This document shows, one piece after another, positions 3,801-38,547 of a stretch of 64,000 bases of DNA. The stretch covers positions 806,001 through 870,000 of the forward strand of contig NZ_AP018498.1 in assembly GCF_003569745.1 (NCBI RefSeq). Reading direction: 5' to 3'. Both the position numbers and the translations under genes were made by a program. This stretch comes from Altererythrobacter sp. B11 (GTDB lineage Bacteria > Pseudomonadota > Alphaproteobacteria > Sphingomonadales > Sphingomonadaceae). The notes under the pieces are model-generated. The model was given only the letters and a program-made list of their open reading frames with translations. It searched no databases and was not told the DNA's origin. Each line of letters starts with the position of its first letter. Within the stretch, counting starts at the first letter, position 1.

Positions 3801-4077
3801 CCTGGCTAAATCCGTTGCGCGAAATCGAGCGCGTCGTCTCTAGTCCTGGAATGCCAGCGAGCGAGATTTCGACCGGATAGGTAACCAGTTTTTCGATTTC
3901 GACCGGCGACAGACGCGGATCGACAGTGTTGATCTGCACCTGGTTGCTGGTGATGTCTGGCACTGCATCGATCGGCAACTTGGTCAGCTGCCAGATGCCG
4001 AGGCCAGCGATTGCAAGAAAGAGGAACAGGACCATCCAGCGGGCGCGGACGGACAGTGCGATAAGTCGAGCAATCAT
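832..4077 (-). CDS. czcA: CzcA-type heavy-metal RND inner-membrane pump
   Basis: A 1081-residue HME-RND transporter that would export divalent cations such as Zn, Cd, Co or Ni from periplasm or cytoplasm using the proton gradient. Visible signs: N-terminal membrane helix, the CzcA/CnrA signature KTGTAEVATDPMPPN, and the proton relay in TM4 (DFGLIVDG...E) with Asp426, Asp432 and Glu439, equivalent to the known CzcA relay with a constant offset. Residues about 148-185 hold an insertion-like polar segment (NPDGKGAKK...). It follows czcB by 3 bases and precedes the DUF190 gene. The substrate is inferred from family; the CusA-like pump at 25.2 kb is a different branch. Confidence 0.93.
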   Translation of the reverse strand: MIARLIALSVRARWMVLFLFLAIAGLGIWQLTKLPIDAVPDITSNQVQINTVDPRLSPVEIEKLVTYPVEISLAGIPGLETTRSISRNGFSQVTAIFSESTDLYFARQQVGERLRQVTEDLPEGVQPQIGPVTTGLGEVVMYTVGYTNPDGKGAKKVAGQPGWQPDGSYLTPEGDLLTDEVAKAGYLRTVQDWIIGPQLKAVPGVAGVDSIGGYAKTFVVEPDPTKLTNFGISYSELGEALEKANLAVGANYYNRGGEAYLVRVDARARSVDEIKNAVAATRGGVPVTVGQIANVKIGGDLRTGAGSLNGKEAVIGTVLMLIDQNSRIVAENVSARIDQVSKTLPPGVEAEIVLDRAELVSATVGTVERNLTEGALLVAASLFLLLGNWRAAIIAALVIPFSFLMMAMGMNSFGVPGNLMSLGALDFGLIVDGAVIIIENCLARLAHRQEHEGRLLSLRERLEETMHASQEMIKPTVFGQAIILLSFAPLLMFTGVEGKTFSPMAITIMLALVSAFILAITLVPALVAIVIRGRVAEKEVWLIRKSKDRYLPLLDKALARPLPFIAGGVAFFLAAVPVFGLLGSEFIPQLDEKNLAVASTRVPSVSLEQSLAMQRKVEEAVAKLPEVELMFSKTGTAEVATDPMPPNVSDGFVILKPEDEWPDGVHTKGDVVERIEKAAGAQLGQLYEVSQPIELRFNELISGVRGDVAIKLYGDDLDKMSQTANEMVRVLQTIPGASSVKADQVGGAPVLDVKLDRAMIARYGLTVQEVADTVAAALGGRESGLLYEGDRRYDITVRVPDATRVNLDDIRSLPVLLPEESGELRKQVPLAQVAQISLTEGLNEIRRENGKRRVVVQLNLEGRDAGSFVQEAQAKIAQVKLPAGYYLEWGGQFESLQAATSRLSIVVPLAFVAIFVLLFVALGSAGRATAVFLTLPLGLAGGIFTLAVTGINFSVSAAVGLIVLAGVSVLNGLVVMTAIRERQEHGMPLIEAIREGMAEKMRAVIMTGFVPAIGFIPMAIATGTGAEVQKPLAVTVIGGLIAATVLTLLVLPSIAKVVLGAIENRQRRKDENASPVAPETA

Positions 4078-16261: not shown

Positions 16262-16797
16262 TCGCTGCGGCGGCGTGCAACGGCACCAGCAGCGACAGCG
16301 CGACAATGCCTATCACGTGGACTTCTTCCGCATGGTCGAGCAGCCAGTATTGCCATTCGGGCGTGAGGTCCTGGAACGGCATCGCCGGCACCGGGATCAG
16401 TCCCGCCAGGAACAGCGGACGCGCAGGCTGGATTGCGGACCACAGGACCCAGCCCGAAAGAGGGATCAGCACAAAGAGCGCGTAAAACGCCGCCTCCACA
16501 GAGTACGCCAGAGTCGATCGCCACCCCTGAATTATCGGCAGCATTTATCGGACCCGGCACCATCAGGCGCCACAACAGCCGCAGAGCGCCCAGCAGGAGA
16601 AGCGTCAGCCCGATCTCCGAATGAAGCCGATACGCCTCCAGCTTGTCAGGGCCGACCATGTAGCGCTGCATCAGCCAGCCCGACCCGAGTTGATAGATCA
16701 CGACCGCCGCCATGACCCAATGAAAGGTGACCCCCACCGGCGTATACTTGCCGCGCCCGCGGTAACGCTCGGCCCAGTCGCGCAAGGAACTGATCAT
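16125..16797 (-). pseudogene. Cytochrome b561 gene with a frameshift
   Basis: Two frames together make one cytochrome b561. From ATG 16797 the sequence reads YTPVGVTFHWVMAAVVIYQL... to VPGPINAAD; then the match jumps to the next frame as IQGWRSTLAYSVEAAFYALF... and ends AIKHHFWDRDDVLEG. The change is at about 16529-16537, where GATAATTC would restore the frame if one A were removed. Haem-binding His residues are present in both halves. The protein would otherwise be a dihaem membrane cytochrome. Start overlaps the ctaG stop. Either a recent mutation or a sequencing error. Confidence 0.75.
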
Positions 16798-18593: not shown

Positions 18594-18995
18594 TCATTCG
18601 TGATCGCTTCCCGGAGAAAGCGCACGCAATATATCGCAATCGCCGATCGAACCGCCGGCGCAGGATTCGACGAGGTCGGTCAACTCGCGCCGCAATGCGG
18701 TGAGGTCGGCAATCTTGCGATCGATCGCGGCGAGATGCTGAACCGCGATCGCATCGACCGTGGCGCAATTCTCCCCGGGGTTACGCGTGAGATTCATCAG
18801 CTGGCTGACCTGATCGAGCGAGAAGCCGAGATCGCGCCCTCGCTTGATGAAGGTGAGCCGGTTGAGAGACGCCTTGTCGTATTCACGGTAGTTGCTGGCA
18901 CTGCGATCCGGCTCTTCGAGCAGCCCTGCCTTCTCGTACCAGCGGATCGTTTCCACACGGACGCCTGTTCGGCATGCCAGTTCACCGATGCGCAT
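18594..18995 (-). CDS. pbrR: MerR-family Pb/Cd/Zn-responsive regulator (PbrR/CadR type)
   Basis: A 133-residue MerR regulator. The N-terminal winged helix reads IGELACRTGVRVETIRWYEK, followed by a coiled dimer helix. Metal-binding Cys are at 77 (ENCATVD), 112 (ESCAGG) and 120 (GDC), close to the three-Cys pattern of CadR/PbrR. It is divergent from the CDF-like gene, with a MerR-type operator between them and a second copy before the pbrT-like gene, so it probably activates both and itself. The pbrT neighbour favours Pb(II), but Cd or Zn is possible. Confidence 0.85.
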   Translation of the reverse strand: MRIGELACRTGVRVETIRWYEKAGLLEEPDRSASNYREYDKASLNRLTFIKRGRDLGFSLDQVSQLMNLTRNPGENCATVDAIAVQHLAAIDRKIADLTALRRELTDLVESCAGGSIGDCDILRALSPGSDHE

Positions 18996-19007
18996 TGATC
19001 CGGCCCC

Positions 19008-19742: not shown

Positions 19743-19773
19743 TTGACCCTGTAGTGGCTTCAGGGTGTATGCG
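19743..19773 (+). promoter_or_regulatory. Second MerR-type promoter/operator, before pbrT-like gene
   Basis: TTGACC at 19743-19748, perfect inverted repeat ACCCTG (19746-19751) ... CAGGGT (19761-19766), and a -10-like TATGCG at 19768-19773, spacing 19. It differs from the first operator at only a few positions, so one regulator should bind both. It sits immediately after the CDF-like stop, so pbrT has its own regulated start of transcription. Confidence 0.8.
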
Positions 19774-19803
19774 CGCCACATGACGAATCTCGGATCGAAT
19801 CGC

Positions 19804-21762
19804 ATGATGCGCCGGCTGCGCGGATTTCTGGCAGTCCTGCTCATTATCGTGGCATCGGGGCTCATGGCCTCGCCTGCGGCAGCCCAGGCGCTCGAGCCGG
19901 CGACCGCCGAACGGGTCGGTACGACGTGGAAGCTCCTCGATTACATAGCGGTCGACTACGAGGGCGCCGTGTCGGGGGGCAAGGTCACCAGCGACGGCGA
20001 ATATGCCGAGATGCAGGAGTTCGCGGCCACGATCGCGGATGAGCTCGATCAACTGCCCGACCGGCCGCGGAAGGCCGAGCTCGTTCGCGAGGCACGCGCG
20101 CTGCGCGACCAGATCGCCGCGAAAGCTCCGGCGGCGCGAATAGCTTCGACCTCCCACAAGATCTCCGGCGTGCTGCTCGAGGCCTATCCCGTCCCGGTCG
20201 CGCCTTCGAGAGCGCCAAACGTCGCGCGCGGTGCTGCTCTCTTCGCCGATAATTGCGCCGCCTGCCATGGCGCGAGCGGGAACGGCAAGGGGCCCGATGC
20301 TGCCGGGCTAGAAACGCCGCCGATTGCGTTCACCGACACGGCCCGCGCGCGCAAGCGCAGCCTCGCGGCACTCGAGCAGGTCATCTCGCAAGGGATCGAC
20401 GGTACCGCCATGCAAAGCTTTCGCGACCTTCCTGCCGAGGATCGCTGGGCGCTCGCCTTCCGCGCCGGAGCGTTCGCCTTTTCGCAGGCCGACGTGCAGC
20501 GGGGCGAGAGGTTGTGGCAGAGCAGCGCCGACATTCGCGCGAGAATGCCCGATCTGAAGGCTCTCGTCACGACCACCCCAGAAGCATTAGGCGAGCAGAT
20601 CGGACAGGGGCGGGCCGACGCCGTCATGGCCTATCTTCGCGCCAATCCCGAGGCTCTGACGGCCCGGGCTTCGGGCGATGCCGGCAAAGCCATCGCCACG
20701 ACCCGCGCCAGGCTCGGCGAAAGCGTCGACGCCTACCGCTCCGGAGACAGGAAACGGGCCAAGGCGCTCGCCCTGTCGGCCTATCTCGACGGCTTCGAAC
20801 CCATCGAGCCGCTGCTCAGCGCCAAGGACGCCGGACTGATGGCGAATATCGAGACGCGCATGGGCGCGTTCCGGGCAGCGATCGGCGACGGAATAGCGCC
20901 CGATGCCCTGGCGACGCAGGCGGGAGCAATCGATACGCTCCTCGATGACGCCGAGCGTTCCCTGGCGCCCGGCGCGTCGAGCGCCGTCACCACGTTCGCC
21001 GGCGCGTTTGCCGTCCTGTTGCGCGAAGGCCTCGAAGCGCTGCTCATCGTCGTGGCGATGCTGGCGTTTCTGGAGAAGGCGGACCGCAAGGACGTGTTGC
21101 GCTACGTTCACGGCGGCTGGACGAGCGCTCTCGTTGCCGGAGGAGCGACCTGGCTGGTGGCCACCTATGCGATCGGCATCAGCGGCGCGAGCCGCGAGCT
21201 GACCGAAGGGTTCGGCTCCCTGTTTGCGGCGGTCGTGCTGCTGTCGGTGGGCATCTGGATGCACGGCAAGGCGCAGGCCGGCCAGTGGCAGAGGTATATT
21301 CAGGAAAAGCTCGCCAGGGCCCTCGGCGGCCAGTCGGGCTGGTTGCTGTTCGGCCTCGCCTTCGTCGTCGTATACCGCGAGGTGTTCGAGACGATCCTGT
21401 TCTTTGCCGCCTTGTGGTCGCAGGGCAACGGAGCGGCAATGCTCGCTGGAACGGTCGCCGCCGTACTTGTACTCGCCGGCCTCGCGTGGGCCATGTTGCG
21501 GTACAGCCGGCAACTGCCGATCGCCAGTTTCTTCCGCTACAGCTCCTGGCTGATGGCCGCGTTGACAGTGGTGCTCGCGGGCAAGGGTGTCGCCGCATTG
21601 CAGGAGGCAGGCTGGATCGATATCGCACCCGTCTCGTTCGTTCCGCGACTTTCGATCGTCGGCCTGTTCCCCACGCTCGAGACGGTCGCGGCGCAGATTC
21701 TCGTCCTTCTCGCGCTCGTCCTCGGCTTTGCGGTCAATCGTCGCCGCGTGGCCGCAGACTGA
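19804..21762 (+). CDS. pbrT: PbrT-like FTR1 permease with cytochrome c domain
   Basis: A 652-residue protein: signal peptide (FLAVLLIIVASGLMASPAAAQ), a periplasmic region, a cytochrome c domain with haem motif NCAACHGASGNGKG, a helical linker, and a C-terminal FTR1 iron/lead permease with about seven helices. The two FTR1 motifs are present: REGLEALLIV and YREVFETILFF. PbrT of Cupriavidus has this layout and takes up Pb(II). ATG 19804 is preferred because the GTG at 19765 and ATG at 19780 lie on or before the expected transcript start. Iron uptake is an alternative function. Confidence 0.85.
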   Translation: MMRRLRGFLAVLLIIVASGLMASPAAAQALEPATAERVGTTWKLLDYIAVDYEGAVSGGKVTSDGEYAEMQEFAATIADELDQLPDRPRKAELVREARALRDQIAAKAPAARIASTSHKISGVLLEAYPVPVAPSRAPNVARGAALFADNCAACHGASGNGKGPDAAGLETPPIAFTDTARARKRSLAALEQVISQGIDGTAMQSFRDLPAEDRWALAFRAGAFAFSQADVQRGERLWQSSADIRARMPDLKALVTTTPEALGEQIGQGRADAVMAYLRANPEALTARASGDAGKAIATTRARLGESVDAYRSGDRKRAKALALSAYLDGFEPIEPLLSAKDAGLMANIETRMGAFRAAIGDGIAPDALATQAGAIDTLLDDAERSLAPGASSAVTTFAGAFAVLLREGLEALLIVVAMLAFLEKADRKDVLRYVHGGWTSALVAGGATWLVATYAIGISGASRELTEGFGSLFAAVVLLSVGIWMHGKAQAGQWQRYIQEKLARALGGQSGWLLFGLAFVVVYREVFETILFFAALWSQGNGAAMLAGTVAAVLVLAGLAWAMLRYSRQLPIASFFRYSSWLMAALTVVLAGKGVAALQEAGWIDIAPVSFVPRLSIVGLFPTLETVAAQILVLLALVLGFAVNRRRVAAD

Positions 21763-22442: not shown

Positions 22443-23678
22443 ATGTTTTGGCGCATTTGCTGGCTGCCCATGGCAGCCGCGCTTGCCGCGCAGGCTGCCC
22501 AGGCGCAGTCGGTCGGCTACGATGAGGCATTGCGGGCAGCGCAAACGCAGCAGCCCGTGCTGCAGGCGCGCGAGCTCGAGATCGAGGCCCTGGAGAGGAC
22601 CGCGGAAGCGGCAGGCGAACTGCCCGACCCGCGGTTGCGCGCGGGCATCGTCAACTTGCCGGTCACCGGACCGGCTGCGTTCGATCTCGATCGGCAGCTT
22701 CCGACGCAGGTCCAGGTCGGGGTGGAGCAGGACTTCCCCAATCTCGCCAAGCGCCACGCCAGGACGGGAGTCGCGGACTCGGACATCCGCGTGGCCGATG
22801 CCCGGTTGGCGCACACCGAACACATGGTTCGGATCGAAACCGGCGAGGCCTGGATCTCGCTCGCATATGCCCAGCAGCGACTGGCGCTCGCCGCGAGGGC
22901 CCAGGACGACCTGCACAAGCTGGTGCCGGTCGCGCGCAGCGCCGTGGCGGCCGGCTCGGCGCGTCCCGCGCAGAGTCTGGAAATACGCCGCGCATTGCTC
23001 GACATCGACGATGCGCGGACGCGGATCGAAGCCGACCGGGAAGCGGCGCAGGCCCGCCTGAGGCGGTACATCGCCGGGACCGAACCCGTCGCCGAAGGGC
23101 CAGTCCCATCGGCCGACATCGATCCCGTGACGCTGCGGGCGACGCTTTCGCGAAACCCAGAGATCATCCTGGCCGACGCGGCCGAGGATCGCGCGCGAGC
23201 CGCGATCGACCTTGCCCGTGCGGACAAGCGGCCCGACTTCGGCGTCAACGTGAGCCTTGGGCGGCGCAACCCCGATTTCGGAAGCGTGGTCTCGGTCATG
23301 GGTTCGGTGACCGTGCCGATCTTCGCCGGTCGGCGGCAGGAGCCGCGCATAGCCGCGGCCGAAGCGCAGGCGGCGGCGGCTCGCGCCGAGCGGGCCGACA
23401 TGCTGCGCGCGCTCGAAGCGCAGTTCGCCGCCGACCTCGCGGCCTGGCGCAGCGCGGCCCGGCAATGGCAGCGCGCGCGCGAGGAGCTGTTGCCTCTGGC
23501 CCGCAATCGGGCGAACCTCGAAACCGCCAGCTTCGCCGCCGGCCGTGCCGAACTGATCGACGTGATCGCGGCCAAGACCGCGCTGGCCCTCCTCGAACTC
23601 GAAGTCCTCGAGCGGGAGGAGGCGACGGTCGAAGCCGCCACCAAACTGCGACTTACCTATCGGGAGCACATGCAATGA
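22443..23678 (+). CDS. cusC: CusC-like outer-membrane efflux protein
   Basis: A 411-residue TolC-family protein with signal peptide (WLPMAAALAAQAAQAQS) and two long Ala/Arg-rich helical repeats. The phrases PDPRLRAGIVNLPV and QVGVEQDFPNLAKR are typical of the copper/silver OEP branch. It forms the outer-membrane duct of the Cus pump. Its stop overlaps the cusB start (ATGCAATGA), so translation is coupled. Confidence 0.88.
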   Translation: MFWRICWLPMAAALAAQAAQAQSVGYDEALRAAQTQQPVLQARELEIEALERTAEAAGELPDPRLRAGIVNLPVTGPAAFDLDRQLPTQVQVGVEQDFPNLAKRHARTGVADSDIRVADARLAHTEHMVRIETGEAWISLAYAQQRLALAARAQDDLHKLVPVARSAVAAGSARPAQSLEIRRALLDIDDARTRIEADREAAQARLRRYIAGTEPVAEGPVPSADIDPVTLRATLSRNPEIILADAAEDRARAAIDLARADKRPDFGVNVSLGRRNPDFGSVVSVMGSVTVPIFAGRRQEPRIAAAEAQAAAARAERADMLRALEAQFAADLAAWRSAARQWQRAREELLPLARNRANLETASFAAGRAELIDVIAAKTALALLELEVLEREEATVEAATKLRLTYREHMQ

Positions 23679-25200
23679 AAGCTGCTTGGGAAAGACTGAC
23701 GCCGCGTCAGAAGTCCTACACGCTTGCCGCCGGGATCGCGCTCGTGAGCATCGGCGCCGGTTACGGGCTTGCGACACTTGGAGACGGCAATTCCGGCAAT
23801 TCCGCAGATAGCAGTGCGGCGACCGAAGCGGGCTGCAAGCAGGTCGCCTACTGGTACGATCCGATGAAGCCCGACCAGCACTTCGATGAGCCGGGCAAAT
23901 CGCCCTTCATGGATATGCAACTGGTGGCGAAATGCGCCGGGGGCGAAGCTGCGAGTGCGGGCGGGGTGAGCATCGATCCCACGCTGGTACAGAACTTCGG
24001 CGTGCGCACCGCGCAGGCCGAGATCGGCGTGCTCGAGCCCGAGACGAACGTCACCGGCACGCTCGCCTACAACGCGCGCCAGGTGTCGACCGTGCAGCCG
24101 CGCGCGAGCGGGTTCGTGCAGCGCACCTACGGCCTCGCGCCCGACGACATTGTCCGCCAGGGAACCCCGCTCGTCGATCTGCTGATCCCCGAGTGGGGCG
24201 GCGCGCAGCGTGAGTACCTGGCGGTCGCCGCAACCGGTGACGCGGCGCTGACCCGCGCGGCGCGCGAGCGGATGCGCCTGCTCGGAATGCCCGACGGGGT
24301 GATCTCCTCGGTCGCGCGCAGCGGCAGTCCCCGCTCGACCATTACGATTACCGCGCCGTCATCCGGCGCTGTCACGAACTTGAGCGTGCGGCCGGGAATG
24401 AGCGTGTCCACGGGTCAGACCCTGGCCGAGATCACCGGTCTCAATCCGATCTGGCTCGAAGCGGCGGTTCCGGAAATCCTCGCCGGCGAAGTACGGGTGG
24501 GACAGCCGCTGAGCGCGACGCTGACAGCGTTCCCGGGCGAGAAATTCGCCGGCCGGATCACCGCCATCCTGCCCAGTGCGCAGGCGCAGAGCCGCACTCT
24601 CACTGTCCGGGCCGAGCTGCGCAATCCCGACCAGCGGCTGCGGCCTGGAATGTTCGCGCAGGTCTCGCTCTCGCCCGCGCGGCGCGAGGCCGTACTGATT
24701 CCGTCCGAAGCGGTCATCCGCACCGGCGAGCGCACGCTGGTGATGCTGGCGCAGCAACGCGGCGGCTATCGCCCCGCCGAAGTGCACATAGGCCGCGAGG
24801 CGAATGGCCGAACGGAAGTGCTCGCCGGCCTCGCCCCGGGCGAGAAGGTGATTACCTCGGGCCAGTTCCTGCTCGATTCCGAAGCCAGTCTGGCGGGGTT
24901 GGACGTTCGCGACATTGACGAGGCGCCCGCGGCCACTTCCGGCGGCGACACCAAGCAGACGCAGCAGCAGGGGCCCAAGCAATACAGCGCAAACGGCACG
25001 ATCGAGAAGATCACCGCACGCTCTGTTACCTTGCGCCATGGCCCCGTTGCCGGACTCGGCTGGCCGGCGATGACGATGACCTTCGCGACGAAAGGACCGG
25101 CCCAGCTGCGCGGATTCAAACGCGGCGACAAGGTCACTTTCCGGTTCGTGCAGGACGGTAAAGCTGTGCGCATCAGCGCCATCAAGCAGGCAAGCAGCCA

Positions 25201-25204
<4 letters not shown>
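23675..25204 (+). CDS. cusB: CusB membrane fusion protein with C-terminal CusF domain
   Basis: A 509-residue periplasmic adaptor. In order: membrane anchor ([19 protein letters not shown]), a heavy-metal-binding segment ([12 protein letters not shown] ... SPFMDMQLV), the adaptor core with lipoyl and barrel domains, a Thr/Gln linker, and a CusF-like Cu/Ag-binding domain at about 430-509 with [16 protein letters not shown] carrying the His, Trp and two Met ligands. The fusion would bring the chaperone to the pump. ATG 23675 overlaps the cusC stop; an upstream extension lies inside cusC. Confidence 0.9.
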
Positions 25205-28346
<3,142 letters not shown>

Positions 28347-28368
<22 letters not shown>

Positions 28369-28739
28369 TGCTGCTTGCCGCGCCGCTGGCGCTGGCTGCC
28401 TGCGATGCCGGCGAACAAGCGTCGGATACATCGGACAGGCCAATGGCGGATAGCCAGATGGCCGGCGGCCAGACGGCAACAGGCGGCGAAGACATGCCGA
28501 TGATGCAAACAGGCGAGGGCGAGCAGATGGGCACTGGCGAAGGGACCGTCGCGGCGGTGGACGCTGAAACGATTACCATCGATCATGGCCCCATCCCCGA
28601 AGTGAACTGGCCGGCGATGACCATGTCCTTTTCAGCCGATGAGGCATCGCGCCAGAAGGTAACCAAAGGCGATCAGGTCACTTTCGCGTTCCGCAAGACC
28701 GAAGGCGGCGGTGAGATCACTTCGATCGACAAGAAGTAG
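28347..28739 (+). CDS. cusF: CusF-like Cu/Ag-binding lipoprotein
   Basis: A 130-residue lipoprotein (APLALAAC lipobox) with a Met/Gln/Gly-rich linker ([24 protein letters not shown]) and a CusF barrel with [16 protein letters not shown], the same ligands as in the CusB C-terminal domain. AAGGAG precedes ATG 28347. It hands periplasmic Cu or Ag to the pump. Having both a fused and a free CusF suggests division of labour or redundancy. Confidence 0.88.
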
Positions 28740-28832: not shown

Positions 28833-29762
28833 TTACAGCGCAACAGGAGGCTCGAGCGTGCCGAGCCACGAAACAAGGATCAGCACCGCGATTCCCAACA
28901 CCGTTTCGAGCGCAATACTTCGCCGCAGGGGAGGGAGTGCGCGGCGCCGGAGCTTCTCGTCGCTCAACGCCTTGCCCAGCGCGGGGGTGAGCCGAAAGCG
29001 GTTGGCGGCGGCGAACGCGATCATGATCACGAAGAGCACGATCTTGACGACCAGCAACTGGCCGTAGCGCGTAGTCCAAAGCTCTAACACCTTGTCCGGC
29101 CCCACCAGGACCCAGCTGTTGACCAGTCCGGTCAGCAGGATGAGCGCGACAGCGGCCGATCCGATCCCGGAAAAACCGTGCAGGGCTGCGTGGATTTCCA
29201 GGCTGTCGCGGTCGCTTCGGGGCCGGGCGAGAAGGAGTTGCCACAATCCGAACAGCGCACCGATCCAGACTCCGGCAGCCATGACGTGCAGAATATCGCT
29301 GAGCAAATGGACGGTACCGATGGACCCTTCTCCGGCCGCCGCGTGACCGAGCCAGGCGAGGCTCGCCGTGGCCGCCGTGCCAAGGACGGCTGCGGTCATC
29401 CAGCTGGTCCTTCCAGCGGGCAGGATGAGGAGCAGCACCGTTGCAAGCGTCGCCGCCGCCGCTCGAACCAGAGCCGCCTTGCCAAGATCCATTCCGAACG
29501 CGACTGTGCGCAGCGAGTTCACATCTAATCCATCGGACAGCGACCCTGCGAACAGAATCGACTGCGCCGCGACGGCCGCGAGGCTTGCGACTGCGAGAGC
29601 CGAGGCGGCGGTGAGCAGGAGAAGGCGTCGGGGCCGTGCCAGGCCTCCGCGTTCCGGGAACGGTCGGCCGCCCGAGTAAAGAAAGAAGAGCGATGCTCCC
29701 ATGAGAAGCATCGCTCCCAGATATTGGATAAGCCTGAGGCTGACGACTACCGGCTCGATCAT
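28833..29762 (-). CDS. copD: CopD-family copper resistance membrane protein
   Basis: A 309-residue protein with eight predicted helices and CopD-type residues (IQYLGAMLLMGASLFF; LSDILHVMAAGVWIGALFGL; HGFSGIGSAAVALILL). CopD works with CopC in copper handling or uptake across the inner membrane. It starts 1 base after the copC stop and ends the copper operon. It is convergent with cusF. Confidence 0.88.
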   Translation of the reverse strand: MIEPVVVSLRLIQYLGAMLLMGASLFFLYSGGRPFPERGGLARPRRLLLLTAASALAVASLAAVAAQSILFAGSLSDGLDVNSLRTVAFGMDLGKAALVRAAAATLATVLLLILPAGRTSWMTAAVLGTAATASLAWLGHAAAGEGSIGTVHLLSDILHVMAAGVWIGALFGLWQLLLARPRSDRDSLEIHAALHGFSGIGSAAVALILLTGLVNSWVLVGPDKVLELWTTRYGQLLVVKIVLFVIMIAFAAANRFRLTPALGKALSDEKLRRRALPPLRRSIALETVLGIAVLILVSWLGTLEPPVAL

Positions 29763-29763
29763 G

Positions 29764-30132
29764 TCAGCCGACCTTGAAGTTCAGCTCGCCCGTCATCTTA
29801 TGGCCATCGGCGGTTGCAGCGCTCCAGACGACTTTGTAAGTGCCCTTGGGCAGCGCCTGTGCTGGAGTTCCGACGATCGTCTTGCCGTCCTTTGCCACCG
29901 CAGTCTTTACCGGAACCGCCATTCCGTGCTCGGGCATAGTCACCTCGAATTTGGAAAAAGCCGGCACGAGCTGTTCGTTGAACGTCAACGAGATGGCTTT
30001 GGGCGCTGCAGACACCGTGGCGTGATCGGCGGGATTGGAGGACGTAAGTTTGGCGTGCGCAAAAGCGGGCCCGGCGATCAAGAGCGATGCAGCGCCAATG
30101 GCGCCCAGAACGCTAGACGTAACGTTTTTCAT
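29764..30132 (-). CDS. copC: CopC periplasmic copper-binding protein
   Basis: A 122-residue cupredoxin-like protein. The signal peptide (SLLIAGPAFA) is cleaved to expose HAKLTSSNPAD, where the new N-terminal His is a Cu(II) ligand; ATADGHKMTGELNF holds the later ligands. It carries periplasmic copper and cooperates with CopD. It is preceded by a 109-base spacer after the NTF2-like gene. Confidence 0.92.
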   Translation of the reverse strand: MKNVTSSVLGAIGAASLLIAGPAFAHAKLTSSNPADHATVSAAPKAISLTFNEQLVPAFSKFEVTMPEHGMAVPVKTAVAKDGKTIVGTPAQALPKGTYKVVWSAATADGHKMTGELNFKVG

Positions 30133-30241: not shown

Positions 30242-30760
30242 TCATTTCCGCGGCGCGCGAGACGAGGAATGATATTGGACGATCTTCCATCCTCCATCGT
30301 CTTGCATCAGCACCGAAGTCGCGGCGCCTTCGCGGTCGATCACCCGTCCGTCGGATAATTCTATCCGGTAAGTGTATGTCTCGCGGCCATAGGCCATGCG
30401 GCCCATGGTGGTCACCGTCACCGTTGGTCTGCCGAAGGTGAAACTCGCAATCTCGGCAAGTTCGGGTCCGAGATGATGCTCCATGTAATTTGCGAAGCTG
30501 CCCTCGGCCTTCCCGTTCTCGAAAATGGCCGAGTCCTGGGCGAACAAATCCGTCATGGCCTTTGCATCGCGCGCGGTCAGCGCATCGCGATAGGCGACGA
30601 GCAAGGCTTCGGCGCCGGAAATTTCTTGAGCGTTAGGGGCTGGACCTCCCGCCGCGGTAGCCATGGTGTGGGCGGAATGATCCGGGCTCTGTGCATGGGC
30701 AGAAGCCGCAGGCAGCGCCAGGCCGAACGCGAGCGCGGCAGCAAGAAGAGGGGTTTTCAT
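30242..30760 (-). CDS. Secreted NTF2/SnoaL-like protein
   Basis: A 172-residue protein: signal peptide (LLAAALAFGLALPAASAHAQ), a short His/Met linker (SPDHSAHTMATAAGG) and an NTF2-like domain (LLVAYRDALTARDAKAMTDLF; DGGWKIVQYHSSSR). Family members bind small ligands or act as enzymes, so the role cannot be fixed. Its place between copB and copC and the His/Met linker suggest a periplasmic copper-linked task. Confidence 0.8.
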   Translation of the reverse strand: MKTPLLAAALAFGLALPAASAHAQSPDHSAHTMATAAGGPAPNAQEISGAEALLVAYRDALTARDAKAMTDLFAQDSAIFENGKAEGSFANYMEHHLGPELAEIASFTFGRPTVTVTTMGRMAYGRETYTYRIELSDGRVIDREGAATSVLMQDDGGWKIVQYHSSSRAPRK

Positions 30761-30780: not shown

Positions 30781-32007
30781 TCAGAACCAGAATCGGACTC
30801 CGACCACGTAATTGGTCACGCTCGGATCATCCCCCCGCGCACGCGCGTAATCCGCGCTCTGGCCGATCTTCCAGGCTTGTTCGATACCGATGTAGGGAGC
30901 GAATTCGCGGGCGATTTCGTAGCGCAGCCGCACACCCAGCTCGAGCGTATCAAGACCGGCTCCGATACCCAGTTCGGGAATATCTTGCGCGGCCAGATTC
31001 ACTTCGGCCCGCGGCTGCAGGATCAGGCGTTGAGTTACGCGCTGATCGAGCTCGCCCTCGAACCGGGCGGTGAGGTCACCCTTGTCTGACAGGAACGCAG
31101 CGGCATCGATATCGAAGCGGTAGGGCATCAGCCCCTGGATACCTATGACCCCGTAAGTCCGATCGCGCGGTGCGAAGTCCTGGCGCAGCCCCGTCTGAAG
31201 GTAGAACCACGGGCTGATTGCCCGACTGTAGAGCGCTTGTGTTTCCGCGCTTTCGATCTTCTCGCCGAAGCTTCCTTCGCCTTCGGATTTGAACCAGATC
31301 TTGTTGATGTCGCCGCCGTAATAGCCCTGGACATCCCACAGATAGCCATCCTTGCCCTGACGGACCTGGTATTCGGCGCGGTCCGCCATGAACCAGAGGA
31401 ACTTCTGTCCGCCCTGTTCAAGGCGAAGCGCCTCGCGCGATCCGCGCATGGCTTCGGCGCCCCAGATGGCGTCGGCCGCACGCGGCGGTCCGGACCCGGC
31501 AGCGGCCGGCGGTGGTCCCTCGGGGATGGGCATGGCCATTGCGCCCATGTCCATCTTGGAGTGATCCATGCCGCTCATATCCATCTGGGAATGGTTCATC
31601 TGGCCCATGTCCATGTCGCCGTGATCTTCAGGCGAAGAGGGGGCGGGAGACGCAGCAGTGCCTTGATCCATCTGACCCTGATCCATTGCGCCATGGTCCA
31701 TCATACTGTGGTCCATCGCGCCCTCGGCGGGAGGCGGCGAGACGCTGGTCGCGGCCGGAGCCTTCGGCGCTCCAGCCACGGGCTTCTTGGCCGGAGCGAC
31801 TTTCTTTGCCGGCGCCGGGGCGTTCTTAGTCGGGGCTGGAGCAGGGGGCGCCTTCTTCGCCGGCGGAGTGGGTTTGGGGGTCGCCTTGGGGGCTGGCGTC
31901 GGCGTCGGCTTCGGCATCGGCATGCCCATGGGCATGCTGTGTCCGGCATGTTGCGCCACCGCCGGCGTCGCGACGCCCAGCATCATGAGTGCGATAAGCG
32001 GCCTCAT
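30781..32007 (-). CDS. copB: CopB outer-membrane copper resistance protein
   Basis: A 408-residue protein. After the signal peptide comes a long Pro/Lys/Ala linker and a Met/His-rich stretch (DHSMMDHGAMDQGQMDQG; SQMDMSGMDHSKMDMGAM), then a CopB beta-barrel region from about residue 175 (EALRLEQGGQKFLWFMADRA ... GVRFWF). The final aromatic residues fit an outer-membrane protein. It overlaps the copA stop by ATGA, and binds or sequesters Cu in the periplasm or outer membrane. Confidence 0.9.
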   Translation of the reverse strand: MRPLIALMMLGVATPAVAQHAGHSMPMGMPMPKPTPTPAPKATPKPTPPAKKAPPAPAPTKNAPAPAKKVAPAKKPVAGAPKAPAATSVSPPPAEGAMDHSMMDHGAMDQGQMDQGTAASPAPSSPEDHGDMDMGQMNHSQMDMSGMDHSKMDMGAMAMPIPEGPPPAAAGSGPPRAADAIWGAEAMRGSREALRLEQGGQKFLWFMADRAEYQVRQGKDGYLWDVQGYYGGDINKIWFKSEGEGSFGEKIESAETQALYSRAISPWFYLQTGLRQDFAPRDRTYGVIGIQGLMPYRFDIDAAAFLSDKGDLTARFEGELDQRVTQRLILQPRAEVNLAAQDIPELGIGAGLDTLELGVRLRYEIAREFAPYIGIEQAWKIGQSADYARARGDDPSVTNYVVGVRFWF

Positions 32008-33863
32008 GCGCCCGCTCCCGGCTGCGCGACGGTGACGATCTGAAACATCCCCGCATGCATGTGATAGAGCAGGTGGCAGTGGAACGCCCAGTCGCCGGGC
32101 TCGTTGGCGGTTAGGTCGAACGTGGCGCTTCCGCCGGGCTGGACGACGACCGTGTGCTTGTTCGGCTGATGTTGCGCCGGGGCGCCGTTGACCAGCTCGA
32201 AGAAATGCCCGTGAAGATGAATAGGGTGCGCCATCATCGTGTCGTTCACCAGCTTGACCCGCACCCGTTCGTTGTTGGCAAACCGGATCGGCTTATCGCT
32301 CACCGAGGAGAACTTCTTCCCGTCGAACGACCACATGAACCGCTCCATGTTGCCAGTCAGGTGGATTTCCATCTGCCGCGAGGGGGTACGCAGCTCGGCA
32401 TGCGGGGCAAGCGCAACGAGATCCTTGTAGGTCAGAACCTTGTACGGGAGGCCGTCGAGTCCGATGCCGGGGTCGCCCATTCGATCGACCGGGTTCATCG
32501 CTACCATGTCGAGCCCGGGACCCACCTTGACATCAGGCGGCAGCATCGAGGTGTCGCGCATGTTCATGCCGCCCATGTCCATCCCGCCCATCGGCTCGGG
32601 CGCGGTGGTCATGGCCGGATTGGCTGCATCGCCCATAGCGCCCGACCCCATGGCGGAATGGTCCATGCCGGCCATACCACCCGCACCATGATCCATCCCT
32701 TCCATCCCTTCCATGCCTCCGCCGCCATGGTCCATTCCGCTCATGCCCATATCGGCCATGGTGAGCAGCGGCGGATCGCGTAGCACCGGAACCGGCGCGC
32801 GCGCGCCGGGGCGGCTGGCGAGAGTGGCCACCGCCATGCCCGAACGGTCCATCGATTCTGCGACGATCGTCATCGCCTCCCCGGTGGGCTCGACGACGAA
32901 GTCATAGGTTTCCGCGGTGCCGATCTGGAACTCCTCGACCGGCACCGGACGCACGTTCTGGCCGTCTGCGGCGACGATATGCATGGTTGCCCCCGGGATA
33001 CGGACGTTAAAGAAGCTCATCGCACTGCCGTTGATCACCCGGATGCGGATCCGCTCGCCCGGTTTGAACAGGAACTCCATTCCTTCCTTCGGTCCGAAAC
33101 CGTTCGCCAGATAGGTGTATGTCGAGCCGGTGACATCGAGGATATCCGTGGGCATCATGCGCATCTTCGCCCACATCCGCCGGTCAGCCCCGCTCAGCGG
33201 ATAGTCGTCGGTCCAGGTGTTCTTCTGGTAATTGAAATAGCCTTCGCCCTTCTTGAGCTTGTCCATGACCGCGTGCGGCATCATCGGCGTGAACTCGCTG
33301 AGCAGCAGCACATAATCCCGGTCCGCCTGCACCGGGTCGGATCCGGCGGGATCGATTACGATCGGCCCGTAATGCCCGGCCTGTTCCTGAAGATCGGAAT
33401 GGCTGTGCCACCAGTACGTGCCCGCCTGACGGATCGCCGGCAGGTCGTAGGTGAAAGTCTGCCCCGGCTTGATGCCAGGAAAGCTCACTCCCGGAACGCC
33501 GTCGAACTGAAATGGCACCAGAAGTCCGTGCCAGTGGATCGAACTGTCAGCATCGAGGGTGTTTGTGACGTTGAGCCGCACCGGCTGACCCTCCTTGAGG
33601 CGCACGAGCGGCCCGGGTACGCTGCCGTTTACGGCGATCCCGTGCCCCCGGCGTCCCTGGACCAGGCGCTGTCCTTCACCAATGGTGAGGTCGATGCTCG
33701 TGCCCGACACTTCGTCGAATCCTTGACGAATCAGCCCGCCCATCAAGCTGGCGCCGCGCGCCCAGGCGGGCACCGCACTCAGCAGGCCAATCGAGGCGAG
33801 CGAGGTCGCGCCTGTGTGCAGGAAGTGTCTACGATTCAACGCCGGCATATCTGTCATTTCCAT
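32004..33863 (-). CDS. copA: CopA/PcoA multicopper oxidase
   Basis: A 619-residue Tat-exported multicopper oxidase (RRHFLHTGATSLASIGLL). The copper-ligand motifs are all present: HWHGLLVPF, WWHSHSDLQ, HPIHLHGHFF and HCHLLYHMHAGM. Residues about 385-440 have the Met/His repeat typical of CopA (GMDHGGGGMEGMEGMDHG). It would oxidise Cu(I) in the periplasm. It is 41 bases after the ECF sigma gene and the first structural gene of the operon. Confidence 0.94.
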   Translation of the reverse strand: MEMTDMPALNRRHFLHTGATSLASIGLLSAVPAWARGASLMGGLIRQGFDEVSGTSIDLTIGEGQRLVQGRRGHGIAVNGSVPGPLVRLKEGQPVRLNVTNTLDADSSIHWHGLLVPFQFDGVPGVSFPGIKPGQTFTYDLPAIRQAGTYWWHSHSDLQEQAGHYGPIVIDPAGSDPVQADRDYVLLLSEFTPMMPHAVMDKLKKGEGYFNYQKNTWTDDYPLSGADRRMWAKMRMMPTDILDVTGSTYTYLANGFGPKEGMEFLFKPGERIRIRVINGSAMSFFNVRIPGATMHIVAADGQNVRPVPVEEFQIGTAETYDFVVEPTGEAMTIVAESMDRSGMAVATLASRPGARAPVPVLRDPPLLTMADMGMSGMDHGGGGMEGMEGMDHGAGGMAGMDHSAMGSGAMGDAANPAMTTAPEPMGGMDMGGMNMRDTSMLPPDVKVGPGLDMVAMNPVDRMGDPGIGLDGLPYKVLTYKDLVALAPHAELRTPSRQMEIHLTGNMERFMWSFDGKKFSSVSDKPIRFANNERVRVKLVNDTMMAHPIHLHGHFFELVNGAPAQHQPNKHTVVVQPGGSATFDLTANEPGDWAFHCHLLYHMHAGMFQIVTVAQPGAGA

Positions 33864-33904: not shown

Positions 33905-34465
33905 TCAAAAATCCGCGAATTTTTCTCTGAGCTGTTGCCGTGCCCGATATATCCTTGTTTCGACGGCCTTTTCGCTGATGTCGAGAATGGCGGCCGCTTC
34001 TGCCTGACTGCGGTTATCGAAGGTCACGAGCACGAACGGCTCACGCAGTTTCAAAGGCAGAAGGACTATCTCGCGTTCCACTTGCGCGAGCAGTTGTCGG
34101 CCATGCAGCTGGTGTTCCTGGTCGGGCGTGTCGTCGGCGATCAGAAAAGTGCCGTCATCGCCGCCTGAGCTTAACATTTGCGTAAAGCGCCTGCTGCGGA
34201 TGGCATCGCGGCACTTGTTTATGGTAATTGTGGCCAGCCACGGCCCAAGGCGCAGCGCCGGGTCGAAGCGGGACAGTGCAAGCCATGCCGAAGCCAGCGC
34301 GTTTTGCACGGCGTCTTGGGAATCCGGGACGTTTCCGAGCATTCGGTTCGCCAGCGCGAGAAGTCGCGGCGTATGCTGTTGGAGCAAGCGGTCGAACGCG
34401 CTGCGATCACCGCCTTGCGCGGCTACTACCAGTGCACGCTCGTTCGTATCATTGGCGAATTCCAT
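33905..34465 (-). CDS. cnrH: CnrH-like ECF sigma factor
   Basis: A 186-residue ECF sigma factor. Region 2 is at about 20-90 (DAVQNALASAWLALSRFDP; LATITINKCRDAIRSRR) and region 4 at about 125-180 (LPLKLREPFVLVTFDNRSQ; ISEKAVETRIYRARQQL). It is 4 bases after the CnrX-like gene and should be released by it and the CnrY-like protein. The likely targets are its own operon and the copper genes directly downstream. Confidence 0.88.
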   Translation of the reverse strand: MEFANDTNERALVVAAQGGDRSAFDRLLQQHTPRLLALANRMLGNVPDSQDAVQNALASAWLALSRFDPALRLGPWLATITINKCRDAIRSRRFTQMLSSGGDDGTFLIADDTPDQEHQLHGRQLLAQVEREIVLLPLKLREPFVLVTFDNRSQAEAAAILDISEKAVETRIYRARQQLREKFADF

Positions 34466-34469
34466 GTCC

Positions 34470-34913
34470 TCAGTCGGATGGATCGGCGGTCAGGGCGTTT
34501 GTCACCTCGTGGTCGAACGCGGACTGCTGCCGAGGATTGAGCAGGTCGCGCATGGCGAATACGTGACGAACGGTCGCCTTCTGGAGATCACCCATCCTCG
34601 TGTGGACCCGGTCGATCGCAATGCCGACCCCGGGTCCGTAGCGATGTTCACTCTCCATCGCTTCGGCGAGCTGAGCATTGGCCGACCTCAGTTCGAGCTC
34701 GAGACGGCGTTGCTCCACTGCAAAACGCTCTTCCAGTCTGTCGAGCTTCTGCTCCTGGGCGGGACTAAGATCGAGTTCCTCGTGTACGAACGCATGCAGG
34801 CCCGCAGGCGCTTTGCTTTCGGAGATCAGCCAGTTCGCGGCAATCGCACTCAAACTGCCCACAGCGGCCGCAATGGCGAGCAGAAGGACGGTCTGCCAGG
34901 TTCGCAGCTTCAT
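34470..34913 (-). CDS. cnrX: CnrX-like periplasmic metal sensor
   Basis: A 147-residue protein: one N-terminal membrane helix (VLLLAIAAAVGSLSAIAANW) and a helical periplasmic domain. The residues His40, His44, Glu61, His117 and Met121 (LHAFVHEELDL; DRLEERF; RHVFAMRDLL) correspond to CnrX His42, His46, Glu63, His119, Met123 with a constant offset of two. ATG 34913 overlaps the CnrY-like stop; an upstream frame extension lies inside that gene. In CnrX these residues bind Ni or Co. Confidence 0.85.
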   Translation of the reverse strand: MKLRTWQTVLLLAIAAAVGSLSAIAANWLISESKAPAGLHAFVHEELDLSPAQEQKLDRLEERFAVEQRRLELELRSANAQLAEAMESEHRYGPGVGIAIDRVHTRMGDLQKATVRHVFAMRDLLNPRQQSAFDHEVTNALTADPSD

Positions 34914-35194
34914 GGGGAAACGTGGAGCAGCGCGGACGGTGCGAGCTGGGTCGTTTCCGCCATCAGGGGCGTCTCGGCTTGCGCATATAGGGGGAGGCCG
35001 CTTGTGCCCAGTCCAGCCCCGAGTGCAACGACGGCTACAACAAGTCCAAGCAGCGAACGACCGCGCCGATCGCGCCTTTCCTGCATCTGTCCTATCCGCT
35101 GCCACACGCCGGGGTAAAAATCGGGGCTCCAGTCGGAGGCGTGGGTGTTCGCTGCAAGTCTGGCAAGGGCATTGTCCAGAGTGACTTCGTCCAT
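34910..35194 (-). CDS. cnrY: CnrY-like membrane anti-sigma factor
   Basis: A 94-residue protein about as long as CnrY. A cytoplasmic N-terminal part (about 1-45, LDNALARLAANTHASDW, WQRIGQMQERRDRRG) could hold the sigma factor; one membrane helix follows (SLLGLVVAVVALGAGLGTSG), then a short periplasmic tail. The gene order Y-X-H is that of cnr. Assignment is by order, size and topology rather than strong sequence identity. Confidence 0.75.
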   Translation of the reverse strand: MDEVTLDNALARLAANTHASDWSPDFYPGVWQRIGQMQERRDRRGRSLLGLVVAVVALGAGLGTSGLPLYAQAETPLMAETTQLAPSALLHVSP

Positions 35195-35245: not shown

Positions 35246-35273
35246 TAGCCCTCGAATATTTTTTTGAGGGCTA
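35246..35273. promoter_or_regulatory. Inverted repeat in the promoter region of the cnrYXH-like operon
   Basis: The arms TAGCCCTC (35246-35253) and GAGGGCTA (35266-35273) flank a 12-base AT-rich spacer. It lies 52-79 bases before the CnrY-like start on the minus strand, in the 228-base spacer shared with the divergent cytochrome c gene. It could be an ECF promoter element or an operator. The T-run inside the loop also allows a hairpin. Confidence 0.45.
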
Positions 35274-35422
35274 CAGCCTTGTGCACCGTATCACAGTCAG
35301 ACGCGTCTGCGCTTTGCCGGACTAAGGTGCTTCGAGGCCTCCCGGCTTAACAAGTTCCCTTGGCAGGGTAATTTCGCTCGTCAGCGTCGAAGATAGAACA
35401 ATCGTATTCAGGGAGAGCTAAA

Positions 35423-36124
35423 TTGGCTTACAAGAAACCCTATGACCTCAAGCGGCACTTGCCGAGTGTTTCGTTCGTCGTGGTGGCCTTGATGGCCTCC
35501 GCTGCCGTTGCCGGTGCCTTCATTTACACCGGGGTCTACAATATCGGCGCCGATGCCCCCCACTGGAGCTTCGTCTACAACACCCTCGACACCTTGCGGG
35601 AGCGCTCGATTTCGCGGGCTGCCGATGGCATCCGGGCACCGACCGATCTCGACAGCCCGGACCGGATTGCGAGCGGTGCGGGCCTCTATACGGAAATGTG
35701 CACGGGCTGCCATCTTGGCCCGGGACTCGAGCCGTCCGAAATGAGCCAGGGGCTCTATCCTCAGGCGCCCCGATTGGCCTCGGCCGGTCTTGATCACACG
35801 CCCGCCGAGCAATTCTGGGCGATCAAGCACGGAATCAAGCTCAGCGCGATGCCCGCGTGGGGCAAGACCCATAACGACGAGCTGATCTGGGACATGGTCG
35901 CCTTCGTGCGCAAGCTGCCCAAAATGTCGCCCGCGCAGTACAACGCAATCATAGCCAGTGCGCCCGCCGATCATGACGAGATGATGGAGGGCATGGCGCC
36001 GCCTGCCGACGGTGCTGACCACCACGGCGGTGGCTCGGGTCATGATGCAGCGATGGAGGGGATGGCGGCTCCTGCCGGAGATGCAGGCCATGTGGATCCA
36101 CCGGGAGCCTCTCACGCTCACTGA
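35423..36124 (+). CDS. Membrane-anchored cytochrome c with Met/His-rich tail
   Basis: A 233-residue protein starting at TTG 35423 (GGGAGAG about 8 bases before). One membrane helix ([20 protein letters not shown]), then a cytochrome c domain with haem motif [11 protein letters not shown] and an axial Met in [12 protein letters not shown]. The C-terminal tail is Met/His/Gly-rich ([18 protein letters not shown]), suggesting copper binding. It is a paralogue of the protein at 40827 and lies upstream of the Cu ATPase. Confidence 0.85.
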
Positions 36125-36171: not shown

Positions 36172-38547
36172 CTGACAGATCACCAGAAGCATGTTCATGA
36201 CCAGGCGCATCCGGCGATCCCGGGAACGGCCGTCGATCCGGTCTGCGGGATGGTTGTGACGATCGAGGGCGCCAAGCACGTCGCCGAGCATGTGGGCGCA
36301 AAGCATTACTTCTGCTCGAGCCGGTGCAAGGACAAGTTCCTGATCGACCCGAATCTCTACTTATCGGGTGCCCACCTTGATGCGGTCGAGGACGCGCCCG
36401 AGGGCACGATCTACACCTGCCCGATGCATCCCGAGATCCGTCAGCCGGGTCCCGGGAGCTGCCCGATCTGCGGCATGGCGCTCGAGCCCGAAATGGTCAG
36501 CCTCGACGAGGGTCCCGATCCCGAACTCGTCGATATGCGCCGCCGCTTCTGGTGGAGCACGCTCTTTACAATCCCGCTGTTCGCCTATGCGATGGGCGAT
36601 CTGATCCCTGGGATAAACTTTGACCGGTTGATCGAACCGGCAGGGGCGCAGTGGGTGCAGTTGCTGCTCGCAAGCCCGGTGGTCTTGTGGGGTGGGTGGC
36701 CGTTCTTCGTGCGGGCGATTCAGTCTCTCAAGACGCGCAACCTCAACATGTTCACGCTTATCGGGTTCGGCGTAGCGATCGCCTATCTGTTCAGCGTCGT
36801 GGCGACGGTTGCACCCGACCTCTTTCCCGCAGCGTTCCGCGATCATTCGGGCCGAGTGGGCGTGTATTATGAAGCCGCGGCGGTTATCACCACGCTGGTC
36901 CTGCTCGGCCAGGTCCTCGAACTGAAGGCGCGCGGATCGACTTCGAGCGCCTTGCGTGCGCTGCTCGAACTGGCGCCGCCGAGCGCGGTCAAGATCTTCG
37001 GCGTGGGCGATGAACGCGAGGTGCCGCTCGATCAGCTTGCCACCGGCGACCTCCTGCGCGTGCGCCCAGGCGACAAAGTTCCGGTCGACGGCGAAATCGA
37101 GGAAGGATCGAGCGCTATCGACGAATCGATGATCAGCGGCGAGCCACTTCCCGTAGCTAAACGGGCAGGCGACACCGTGATCGGAGGGACGGTCAATCAG
37201 ACCGGCGGGTTCGTGATGCGCGCAACGGGCGTGGGCACGGATACGATGCTGTCCAAGATCGTGCAGATGGTGGCAGCGGCGCAGCGCAGCCGTGCTCCCA
37301 TACAACGGTTGGCCGATCAGGTCGCAGGTTGGTTTGTACCTGTTGTCATCGGCATTTCGGCGGTCACTTTCGTCGTCTGGGCGATCTGGGGACCGGCGCC
37401 CGCGCTGGCCTACGCGCTGGTCAATGCGATCGCGGTGCTCATCATTGCCTGCCCCTGTGCCCTCGGCCTGGCCACGCCGATGTCGATCATGACCGGCACC
37501 GGCCAGGGCGCGCAGCACGGAATCCTGATCCGCAATGCCGAGGCACTCGAGACGCTCGAGAAGATCGATACGCTGGTCGTCGACAAGACCGGCACGCTGA
37601 CGATGGGCAAGCCCGATCTGGTTGCGGTGACGACTGCGGAAGATATTGACGAGACCGGGTTCCTCGCCGCCGTCGCAGGTGTCGAAATGGGCAGCGAGCA
37701 TCCGCTTGCACATGCCATCGTCGAAGGCGCGCGGGCACGCGGGGTGTCGCCTGCAGAGGCCACAGACCTCGCCTCCACGACCGGCGAAGGTGTCGAGGCG
37801 ATGGTGCATGAGCGCCGCGTTGCCATCGGCAACGAGAAGATGATGCGGCGCGTGGGAATCGATGACGAGACCTGGCTCGCTTCGGCGGAAAGCGGCCGCA
37901 AACAGGGCCAGACGGTAATGTTCGTTGCGGTCGATGGCCGCCCCGCCGGACTGATCGCCGTCGCCGATCCGATCAAGCCCACGAGCGCCGCAGCCATCGC
38001 GGCGCTGCACACGCGCAACATACGCGTGGTTATGCTAACCGGTGACAGCCGGGCTACTGCCGAAGCGGTCGCGCGCGAGATGGGCATCGACGAGGTTCAC
38101 GCGAATGTCTCGCCCGAGGACAAGCATCGCGAGATCGAACGGTTGAAGTCCGAAGGGCGCCGTGTCGCCATGGCGGGCGACGGCATCAACGACGCGCCCG
38201 CGCTTGCTGCCGCCGATGTCGGCATTGCGATGGGCACCGGTACCGATGTCGCGATTGAAAACGCCGGCATCACGCTGGTTCGAGGCGATCTGACTGGCGT
38301 CGTTCAGGCCATCGTGCTGTCCCGCGCCACGATGCGCAACATCCGGCAGAACCTGTTCTTCGCCTTCGCCTACAACACGCTCGGGATTCCGGTCGCGGCG
38401 GGTGTGCTGTTCCCGGTCTTCGGGCTGCTGCTCAATCCCATGATCGCGGCCGCCGCGATGAGCCTGTCGTCGGTCTCCGTGATAGCGAACGCGCTCCGCT
38501 TGCGCGGGCTTCGCCTCCCCACGCTCGCGAGCGGCATGGCGAAATGA
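36172..38547 (+). CDS. Cu(I)-type P1B ATPase with YHS and HMBD domains, start unclear
   Basis: A Cu/Ag-exporting P-type ATPase of about 765-791 residues. It has an N-terminal YHS-like domain (DPVCGM ... [12 protein letters not shown]), a metal-binding [22 protein letters not shown], then the ATPase core: CPC ion motif ([10 protein letters not shown]), phosphorylation [21 protein letters not shown] and [10 protein letters not shown]. The first ATG in frame is 36250, but it would cut the YHS domain in half. Upstream the frame stays open with no ATG, GTG or TTG; CTG 36172 gives [11 protein letters not shown] and is used here. Confidence 0.9.

Follow-up and report, generated by a model that had tools for sequence, protein, structure and literature searches.

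Signalling through the CnrYXH proteins is known from Cupriavidus metallidurans, where it answers to nickel and cobalt and the cnrCBA genes are placed after the sigma factor gene. Copper-resistance operons of the copABCD type, on the other hand, are commonly attributed to control by two-component systems of the CopRS, PcoRS and CusRS kind, in which periplasmic copper sensing switches on copABCD. The window analysed here, a stretch of 64,000 nucleotides from Altererythrobacter sp. B11, brings both together, with a set of CnrYXH-like genes (termed Y, X and H below) standing directly in front of copper genes. This raises two questions, namely which metal the sensor X answers to and whether the sigma factor H governs the copper genes at all.

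Organisation of the locus

The three signalling genes are adjacent on the minus strand (35194-33905) and retain the order Y-X-H, as a previous sequence-only reading of this DNA had described. Y shares its last 4 nt (ATGA) with the start of X, a gap of 4 nt separates X from H and 41 bases separate H from copA, which is followed by copB, a SnoaL-like gene, copC and copD (Table 1). CnrYXH-type signalling ahead of a copper operon, the central observation of that reading, is therefore borne out by the annotation, and the cnrCBA or nccCBA pump genes are absent after H at this locus. The SnoaL-like gene after copB recurs in the neighbourhoods of many relatives. Together with a CusB-CusA-CusF set beyond copD and the divergent run of genes, the surroundings of YXH form a copper island.

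Table 1. Genes and promoter-like sites of the YXH locus, in window coordinates.
Feature	Position	Strand	Basis
Y, anti-sigma-like protein, 94 aa	35194-34910	-	ORF
X, membrane-anchored periplasmic metal sensor, CnrX type, 147 aa	34913-34470	-	PF13801; PDB NccX/CnrX matches
H, CnrH-type ECF sigma factor, 186 aa	34465-33905	-	PF04542 and PF08281
copA, copper resistance multicopper oxidase	32004..33863	-	TIGR01480, 749.5 bits (cut-off 479)
copB, copper resistance protein B	30781..32007	-	PF05275
SnoaL/NTF2-like protein	30242..30760	-	PF13474
copC, periplasmic copper-binding protein	29764..30132	-	NF033814
copD, copper membrane protein	28833..29762	-	NF033808
Cytochrome c, first gene of divergent run	35423..36124	+	PF13442
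Copper-type P1B ATPase, after cytochrome c gene	36250..38547	+	TIGR01511 above cut-off; PRK10671 below its cut-off
Promoter-like site before Y	35253-35229	-	GAGGG-N16-CGTA, GCGTAT at -10, PWM 21.4
Promoter-like site before copA, in H-copA gap	33906-33882	-	CnrH-like motif, PWM 14.0
Promoter-like site toward cytochrome c gene	35266-35290	+	GAGGG-N16-CGTA with CCGTAT, PWM 12.7

Relationship of Y, X and H to CnrYXH

The best solved relatives of X are NccX (4clv, E 8.8e-19) and CnrX (3zg1, E 1.6e-17). Its residues H40, H44, E61, H117 and M121 match the five metal ligands of CnrX, H42, H46, E63, H119 and M123. Retention of all five at a constant offset of two, as put forward in the sequence-only reading, is found by alignment and by structural superposition alike. 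M123 also appears in PMC7689651, where this methionine is needed for nickel and cobalt signalling; binding of nickel or cobalt by X is accordingly to be expected as possible, since all five ligands are kept, the signalling Met included. The predicted model of X (pLDDT 85) has CnrX as its best fold match, residues 37-143 superposing on 39-145 of 2y3d (107 residues, Z 12.7, 2.1 A). CnrX and NccX entries fill the top nine rows of the fold search (Z 11.5-12.7) and the next row reaches 9.7; helical bundles may attain Z values of this size without kinship, but sequence comparison also relates X to CnrX.

For H the nearest solved relative is CnrH (4cxf, E 2.5e-23), followed by SigW (E 9.8e-17). Y, taken as a single sequence, found no family or solved relative in family-model and PDB searches. 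It contains a single hydrophobic stretch (judged by eye) and LAPSALL in its C-terminal part. A family profile of 111 distinct Y proteins, when set against a profile of 4 CnrY sequences, aligned with an hhalign probability of 74.5% and E 2.7e-5, in one comparison that covers profile columns 1-57, and the score of 29.4 compares with a maximum of 14.0 among 100 column-shuffled profiles. By this profile comparison only, Y is homologous to CnrY and, judged by the sequence features tested, the signalling module belongs with CnrYXH. As a resistance determinant the locus is not cnr, because the target genes differ.

Promoter-like sites in the window and genome

GAGGG-N16-CGTA is visible by eye upstream of Y, and further sites of this type lie in the H-copA gap and toward the cytochrome c gene. 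At the copA site the TGA stop codon of H (33905-33907) is part of the -35 element TGAGGG. Of 157 distinct H 3' ends examined, 102 carry the motif, and 55 of these show the same overlap. A copA promoter that does not depend on the sigma factor, which the sequence-only reading had named as the outcome that would count against it, is contradicted by the sequence, as copA has a CnrH-like promoter-like site of its own in this gap.

Counts of the motif alone are weak and it is the position of the sites that carries weight. The window contains five pattern matches where 1.46 would be expected, and 2 of 100 shuffles have at least that many; the entire genome holds 8 exact matches, fewer than the 13 of the reversed control. 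Two of the matches in the window, at 16460 and 16928, fall within open frames and score above the copA site. Outside the island the genome has five matches, and each overlaps an open frame no shorter than 120 codons. Three of these frames have Pfam domains (GH25, HlyD-type adaptor and response regulator) and two are without a known family; none of the five matches adjoins a recognised copper, nickel or cobalt determinant. One of the two matches in frames of no known family (L230 1501-1526; genome 3301229-3301254) has a spacer of 16, stands 134 nt ahead of the gene for an M61 peptidase, far from the island, and could be real or due to chance. Near the three RND pumps of the genome that are most like CnrA (51–59% identical) there is no exact match.

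Conservation of the promoter motif in relatives

The exact motif is present in 74 of 110 distinct Y upstreams (110 bp), with a spacer of 16 in 70 and of 17 in 4, while composition-shuffled upstreams contain it 0.5 times on average and 3 times at most (200 rounds). Among the remaining 36, NNGGG-N15-17-CGTA is found in 30. A mirror motif pointing toward the divergent gene, within 180 bp of Y, accompanies 68 of the 110 distinct upstreams, compared with 0.4 after shuffling.

From 100 of the 110 Y upstreams a weight matrix (TGAGGGAT-N12-TGCGTATA) was built and applied to the 100 bp that precede other genes. With the threshold at 13, a value picked after the scores were known, sites precede 77 of 96 distinct copA genes (71/79 directly after H, 6/17 elsewhere) and 51 of 63 copC genes. 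The same threshold is reached upstream of DUF411 genes in 4/46, cytochrome c in 3/11 and DUF305 in 2/42 cases; the cytochrome c site of the window, at 12.7, falls below it. No site was obtained upstream of copB (0/59), copD (0/58), P1B ATPase (0/42), SnoaL (0/23) and RND genes labelled CusA, CnrA-like ones included (0/22), nor for CnrC-like (0/13), CusF (0/9), CnrB-like (0/7), CusB (0/4) and CnrA-like (0/4) genes. In named genomes, the H-copA junctions of the best 80 of at least 572 stretches contain the exact motif in 68 of 74 cases.

On pMOL28, GAGGG-N17-CGTA of cnrC ends 33 nt and AAGGG-N17-CGTA of cnrY 32 nt before the start codon. Start sites for cnrC and cnrY are reported 24–25 nt upstream of the genes (PMC9045368), which places the motif ends 8–9 nt before them. 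The recurring position of the GAGGG-N16-CGTA sites suggests that H uses them as promoters.

Distribution and gene neighbourhoods

Relatives of X were found in 80 of 199 genomes of the window's family, 92 of 199 of a second alphaproteobacterial family, 9 of 299 Burkholderiaceae and 17 of 398 genomes across the phylum, in searches that began from copper-type sequences. The second family is, by inference, Caulobacteraceae, while X of the window has its named relatives in the Sphingomonadales. Eight of 369 gammaproteobacterial genomes (in the GTDB sense) match X, one of them (G445) belonging to Burkholderiaceae; the remaining 7 matches are weak (22.9–35.9 bits), with no H-like gene within approximately 1.5 kb on each side. 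No X relative was detected in the viral contigs searched. Among plasmids, 79 records match X, mostly from Sphingomonadales, with 40 called conjugative and 6 from Cupriavidus, and all five alphaproteobacterial plasmid loci inspected are copper islands.

Neighbourhoods were examined at 80 places from 74 of the 80 positive genomes of the window's family and at 29 places from 29 of the 92 positive genomes of the second (stretches up to 20 kb), as well as at all 10 Burkholderiaceae places and a single locus from f18, a further family. Taking a copper gene to be one whose best-hit label comes from proteins of the window or of locus L007, copper genes are present in 79/80, 28/29 and 1/1 loci of the window's family, the second family and f18, respectively. 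The first two together amount to 107 of 109 loci, 98 of them with copA or copB (74 and 24; the f18 locus also), and in 9 of the 107 the label rests on copC/copD, CusB/CusF or P1B ATPase only. In L135 and L220 no copper gene was found within the stretch examined. H adjoins X in 80/80, 28/29 and 1/1 loci; in L212 H precedes X. All 10 Burkholderiaceae loci have cnrC after H and an RND protein 87–100% identical to CnrA, with one of the 10 also receiving a copper-gene label (P1B ATPase). At least 572 stretches of named genomes encode X relatives; the best 80 all contain copper genes, with copA directly after H in 74, and these demonstrate constancy rather than an unbiased rate because they are nearest to the copper-type query. 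The YXH-copper arrangement is not due to chance, since it recurs in many genomes.

One locus, L175, has a copper-type YXH followed directly by a CnrC-CnrB-RND set (RND 54% to CnrA) and is possibly a mixed-metal case. Other alphaproteobacterial islands also contain CnrA-like RNDs (47–61% to CnrA).

An X and H pair was obtained for 82 of 114 rows, 48 of which (44 copper, 4 nickel) were used for a combined tree. The nickel and copper sets form the two sides of one branch; the tree, which has no outgroup, does not polarise the split. The nickel-type row nearest to NccX is presumably L192. Rather than a nickel/cobalt system 'placed' before copper genes, to use the word of the sequence-only reading, this is a separate, widespread lineage for which copper genes are the usual neighbours.

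Additional conserved residues in the sensor

Copper-linked X proteins were aligned as 109 distinct rows, comprising 75 from the first family, 27 from the second, 5 from plasmids, 1 from f18 and that of the window. The classical ligands are nearly constant (H40, H44 and E61 in 108 each, H117 in 109 and M121 in 107). H104-x-x-M107 is kept in 109 of 109 and H90 in 96, whereas nickel-type sensors (5 distinct rows) have Glu at 104, Ala at 107 and Pro at 90. Both H104 and M107 are likewise found in all 58 distinct named X proteins, a set partly overlapping the 109. Three rows (L193, L222 and L170) have lost classical ligands with H104 and M107 retained; in L193, from a copA-copB island, H40 is replaced by Asp and M121 by Ile.

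In the predicted model of X, H104 and M107 share helix 94-123 with the ligands H117 and M121. H90 is modelled at the hairpin turn between helices 51-89 and 94-123, and therefore need not be part of an H104/M107 site. Pairs of the HxxM type bind Ag(I) in SilE peptides (PMC10080550), which makes a soft-metal site at H104/M107 plausible. These residues could also be a lineage marker, since one tree branch separates copper- and nickel-type sensors; with a single split between both sets, their differences count as one independent event, and other positions, for example Q53 and Q129, separate them as well. A metal role for H104 and M107 may lie behind the conservation pattern.

Proposed copper switch and alternative explanations

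YXH is probably a periplasmic copper-sensing sigma/anti-sigma switch which drives the copper genes through H. By homology to CnrYXH, the membrane anti-sigma Y would hold H at the membrane together with X. Copper would reach X on its periplasmic side and bind the five-ligand site, the H104-x-x-M107 pair on the same long helix, or both, and X so altered may cause Y to release H. The freed H would then steer RNA polymerase to promoters of the form GAGGG-N16-CGTAT. The one before Y would provide autoregulation and presumably read-through into copA-copB-SnoaL-copC-copD, and further putative targets are the promoter before copA itself and that before the divergent cytochrome c/P1B ATPase run.

Copper as the sensed metal is suggested by the copper neighbours, by the sigma-type promoter before copA and copC and by an HxxM pair that has no nickel-type counterpart. 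The CnrX scaffold can bind copper, since crystals of CnrX with copper exist (title of 3epv) and the entire cnr cluster of C. metallidurans is induced by this metal, which PMC7563307 describes as cross-regulation. The sequence-only reading had left two options, of which a copper-responsive sensor is favoured on these grounds and nickel/cobalt control of copper resistance is unlikely. Within the copper switch, X may tentatively be viewed as a two-site sensor, in which H104-x-x-M107 would tune X to Cu(I) (or Ag(I)) as its actual signal and the nickel/cobalt site would be reused or act as a gate, a refinement that we put at somewhat under even chances.

A broader sensor is the best of the alternatives, even if rather improbable. 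X would here keep the nickel/cobalt site and answer copper, nickel, cobalt and perhaps silver, with the copper genes as the main output. The five retained ligands, the copper crystal of CnrX, the copper induction of cnr and the CnrA-like pump after H in L175 all fit this view, but the neighbours of YXH are mostly copper genes and the CnrA-like RNDs of the genome are without an exact motif match nearby.

Far less credible is that X senses nickel or cobalt as in Cupriavidus and that these metals induce the copper genes. The ligand set, M121 included, is identical to that of CnrX, but the copper context is consistent in two families and many genera, the invariant HxxM is missing from nickel-type sensors, and the L193 sensor, inside its copA-copB island, has dispensed with H40 and M121 and not with H104 and M107.

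Least probable of all is that copABCD obeys another copper regulator, CueR- or CopRS-like, with H serving other genes: the genome does contain matches to the CueR and CopS models below cut-off (6 MerR-type regulators, one at 18618-18998, and 20 kinases, respectively), but no genome protein reaches the curated CueR or CopS/CusS-type cut-offs, a CnrH-like promoter lies in the H-copA gap here and upstream of 77 of 96 distinct copA genes, and the five exact matches outside the island overlap open frames, three with Pfam domains.

Comparison with known metal-responsive systems

The locus resembles CnrYXH in gene order, overlapping genes, sensor fold, the five ligands, sigma factor family, promoter type and a further promoter placed after H, ahead of the first target gene. 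It differs in having copABCD rather than cnrCBA after H, in the invariant H104/M107 and usual H90 of the sensor, in a promoter spacer of mostly 16 instead of the 17 of pMOL28, in a Y that ends in an LAPSxLL-type sequence where CnrY has SPFGLLIG, and in its position on the opposite side of one tree branch. Ncc serves an RND pump for nickel, cobalt and cadmium, metals also named in 4clv. NccX is the best solved match of X, and the sensor residues differ from it in the same manner as from CnrX.

In the SigAb-AabA-AabB system of Acinetobacter, a copper-induced ECF sigma factor is paired with a membrane anti-sigma modelled like CnrY, its direct regulon consisting of sigAb, relA and an sRNA, with metal genes affected indirectly (PMC12153292). 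The pairing of an ECF sigma factor with a CnrY-like membrane anti-sigma is shared. However, the sigma gene comes first there, and the portion of PMC12153292 available mentions no CnrX-type sensor; identity with the SigAb type was rejected on the Y-X-H order of the window. CorE of Myxococcus is an ECF sigma factor that controls copper oxidase and copper ATPase genes; it has no linked anti-sigma, and a Cys-rich domain at its own C-terminus senses the copper (PMC3107203). A link to both kinds of copper gene is common to the two, but the only Cys of H is in region 2 and the protein stops soon after region 4. Assignment to the CorE type (ECF238) was rejected, as H has no Cys-rich C-terminal domain and is linked to Y and X, whose genes precede it. 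The CopRS, PcoRS and CusRS systems use a histidine kinase and a response regulator in place of a sigma/anti-sigma switch, and control of the CopS/CusS type was rejected with no kinase of the genome over the curated cut-off.

The copper-linked branch seems to be an undescribed variant of a known signalling module. A non-exhaustive literature search found no description of such a lineage, although a CnrH group linked to copper may have been mentioned before; it is absent from the available parts of PMC10141476, PMC8224329, PMC4803752, PMC3637150, PMC11647585, PMC3511200, PMC4598750 and PMC8103513. Many alphaproteobacteria, with some loci on plasmids, seem to drive copABCD by an ECF sigma switch. 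The structure of CnrX is solved and its metal selectivity has already been studied, so that exchanging a few residues between CnrX and its copper-linked sister lineage, in which two further residues of ligand type are invariant, would allow the metal choice of a periplasmic sensor to be tested. If the two-site reading is true, CnrX and the copper sensor would constitute a natural pair, one scaffold retuned between metals.

Other features of the window

Several further genes of the window merit description. A CzcA/CnrA-type RND pump (832-4077), 58% identical to CnrA, lies outside the copper genes and is without an exact sigma-type motif. The MerR-type regulator at 18618-18998 is near the CadR-PbrR and CueR models and below both cut-offs. 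The CusB-like adaptor (23465-25204) combines an N-terminal heavy-metal-binding domain with a fused C-terminal CusF domain, and a separate CusF gene is present at 28347-28739. Inside the copper island, the gene at 19765-21762 encodes a fusion of cytochrome c with an FTR1 iron permease domain; a protein annotated as 'cytochrome c/FTR1 family iron permease' is also located near YXH in a Sphingorhabdus plasmid locus (L008).
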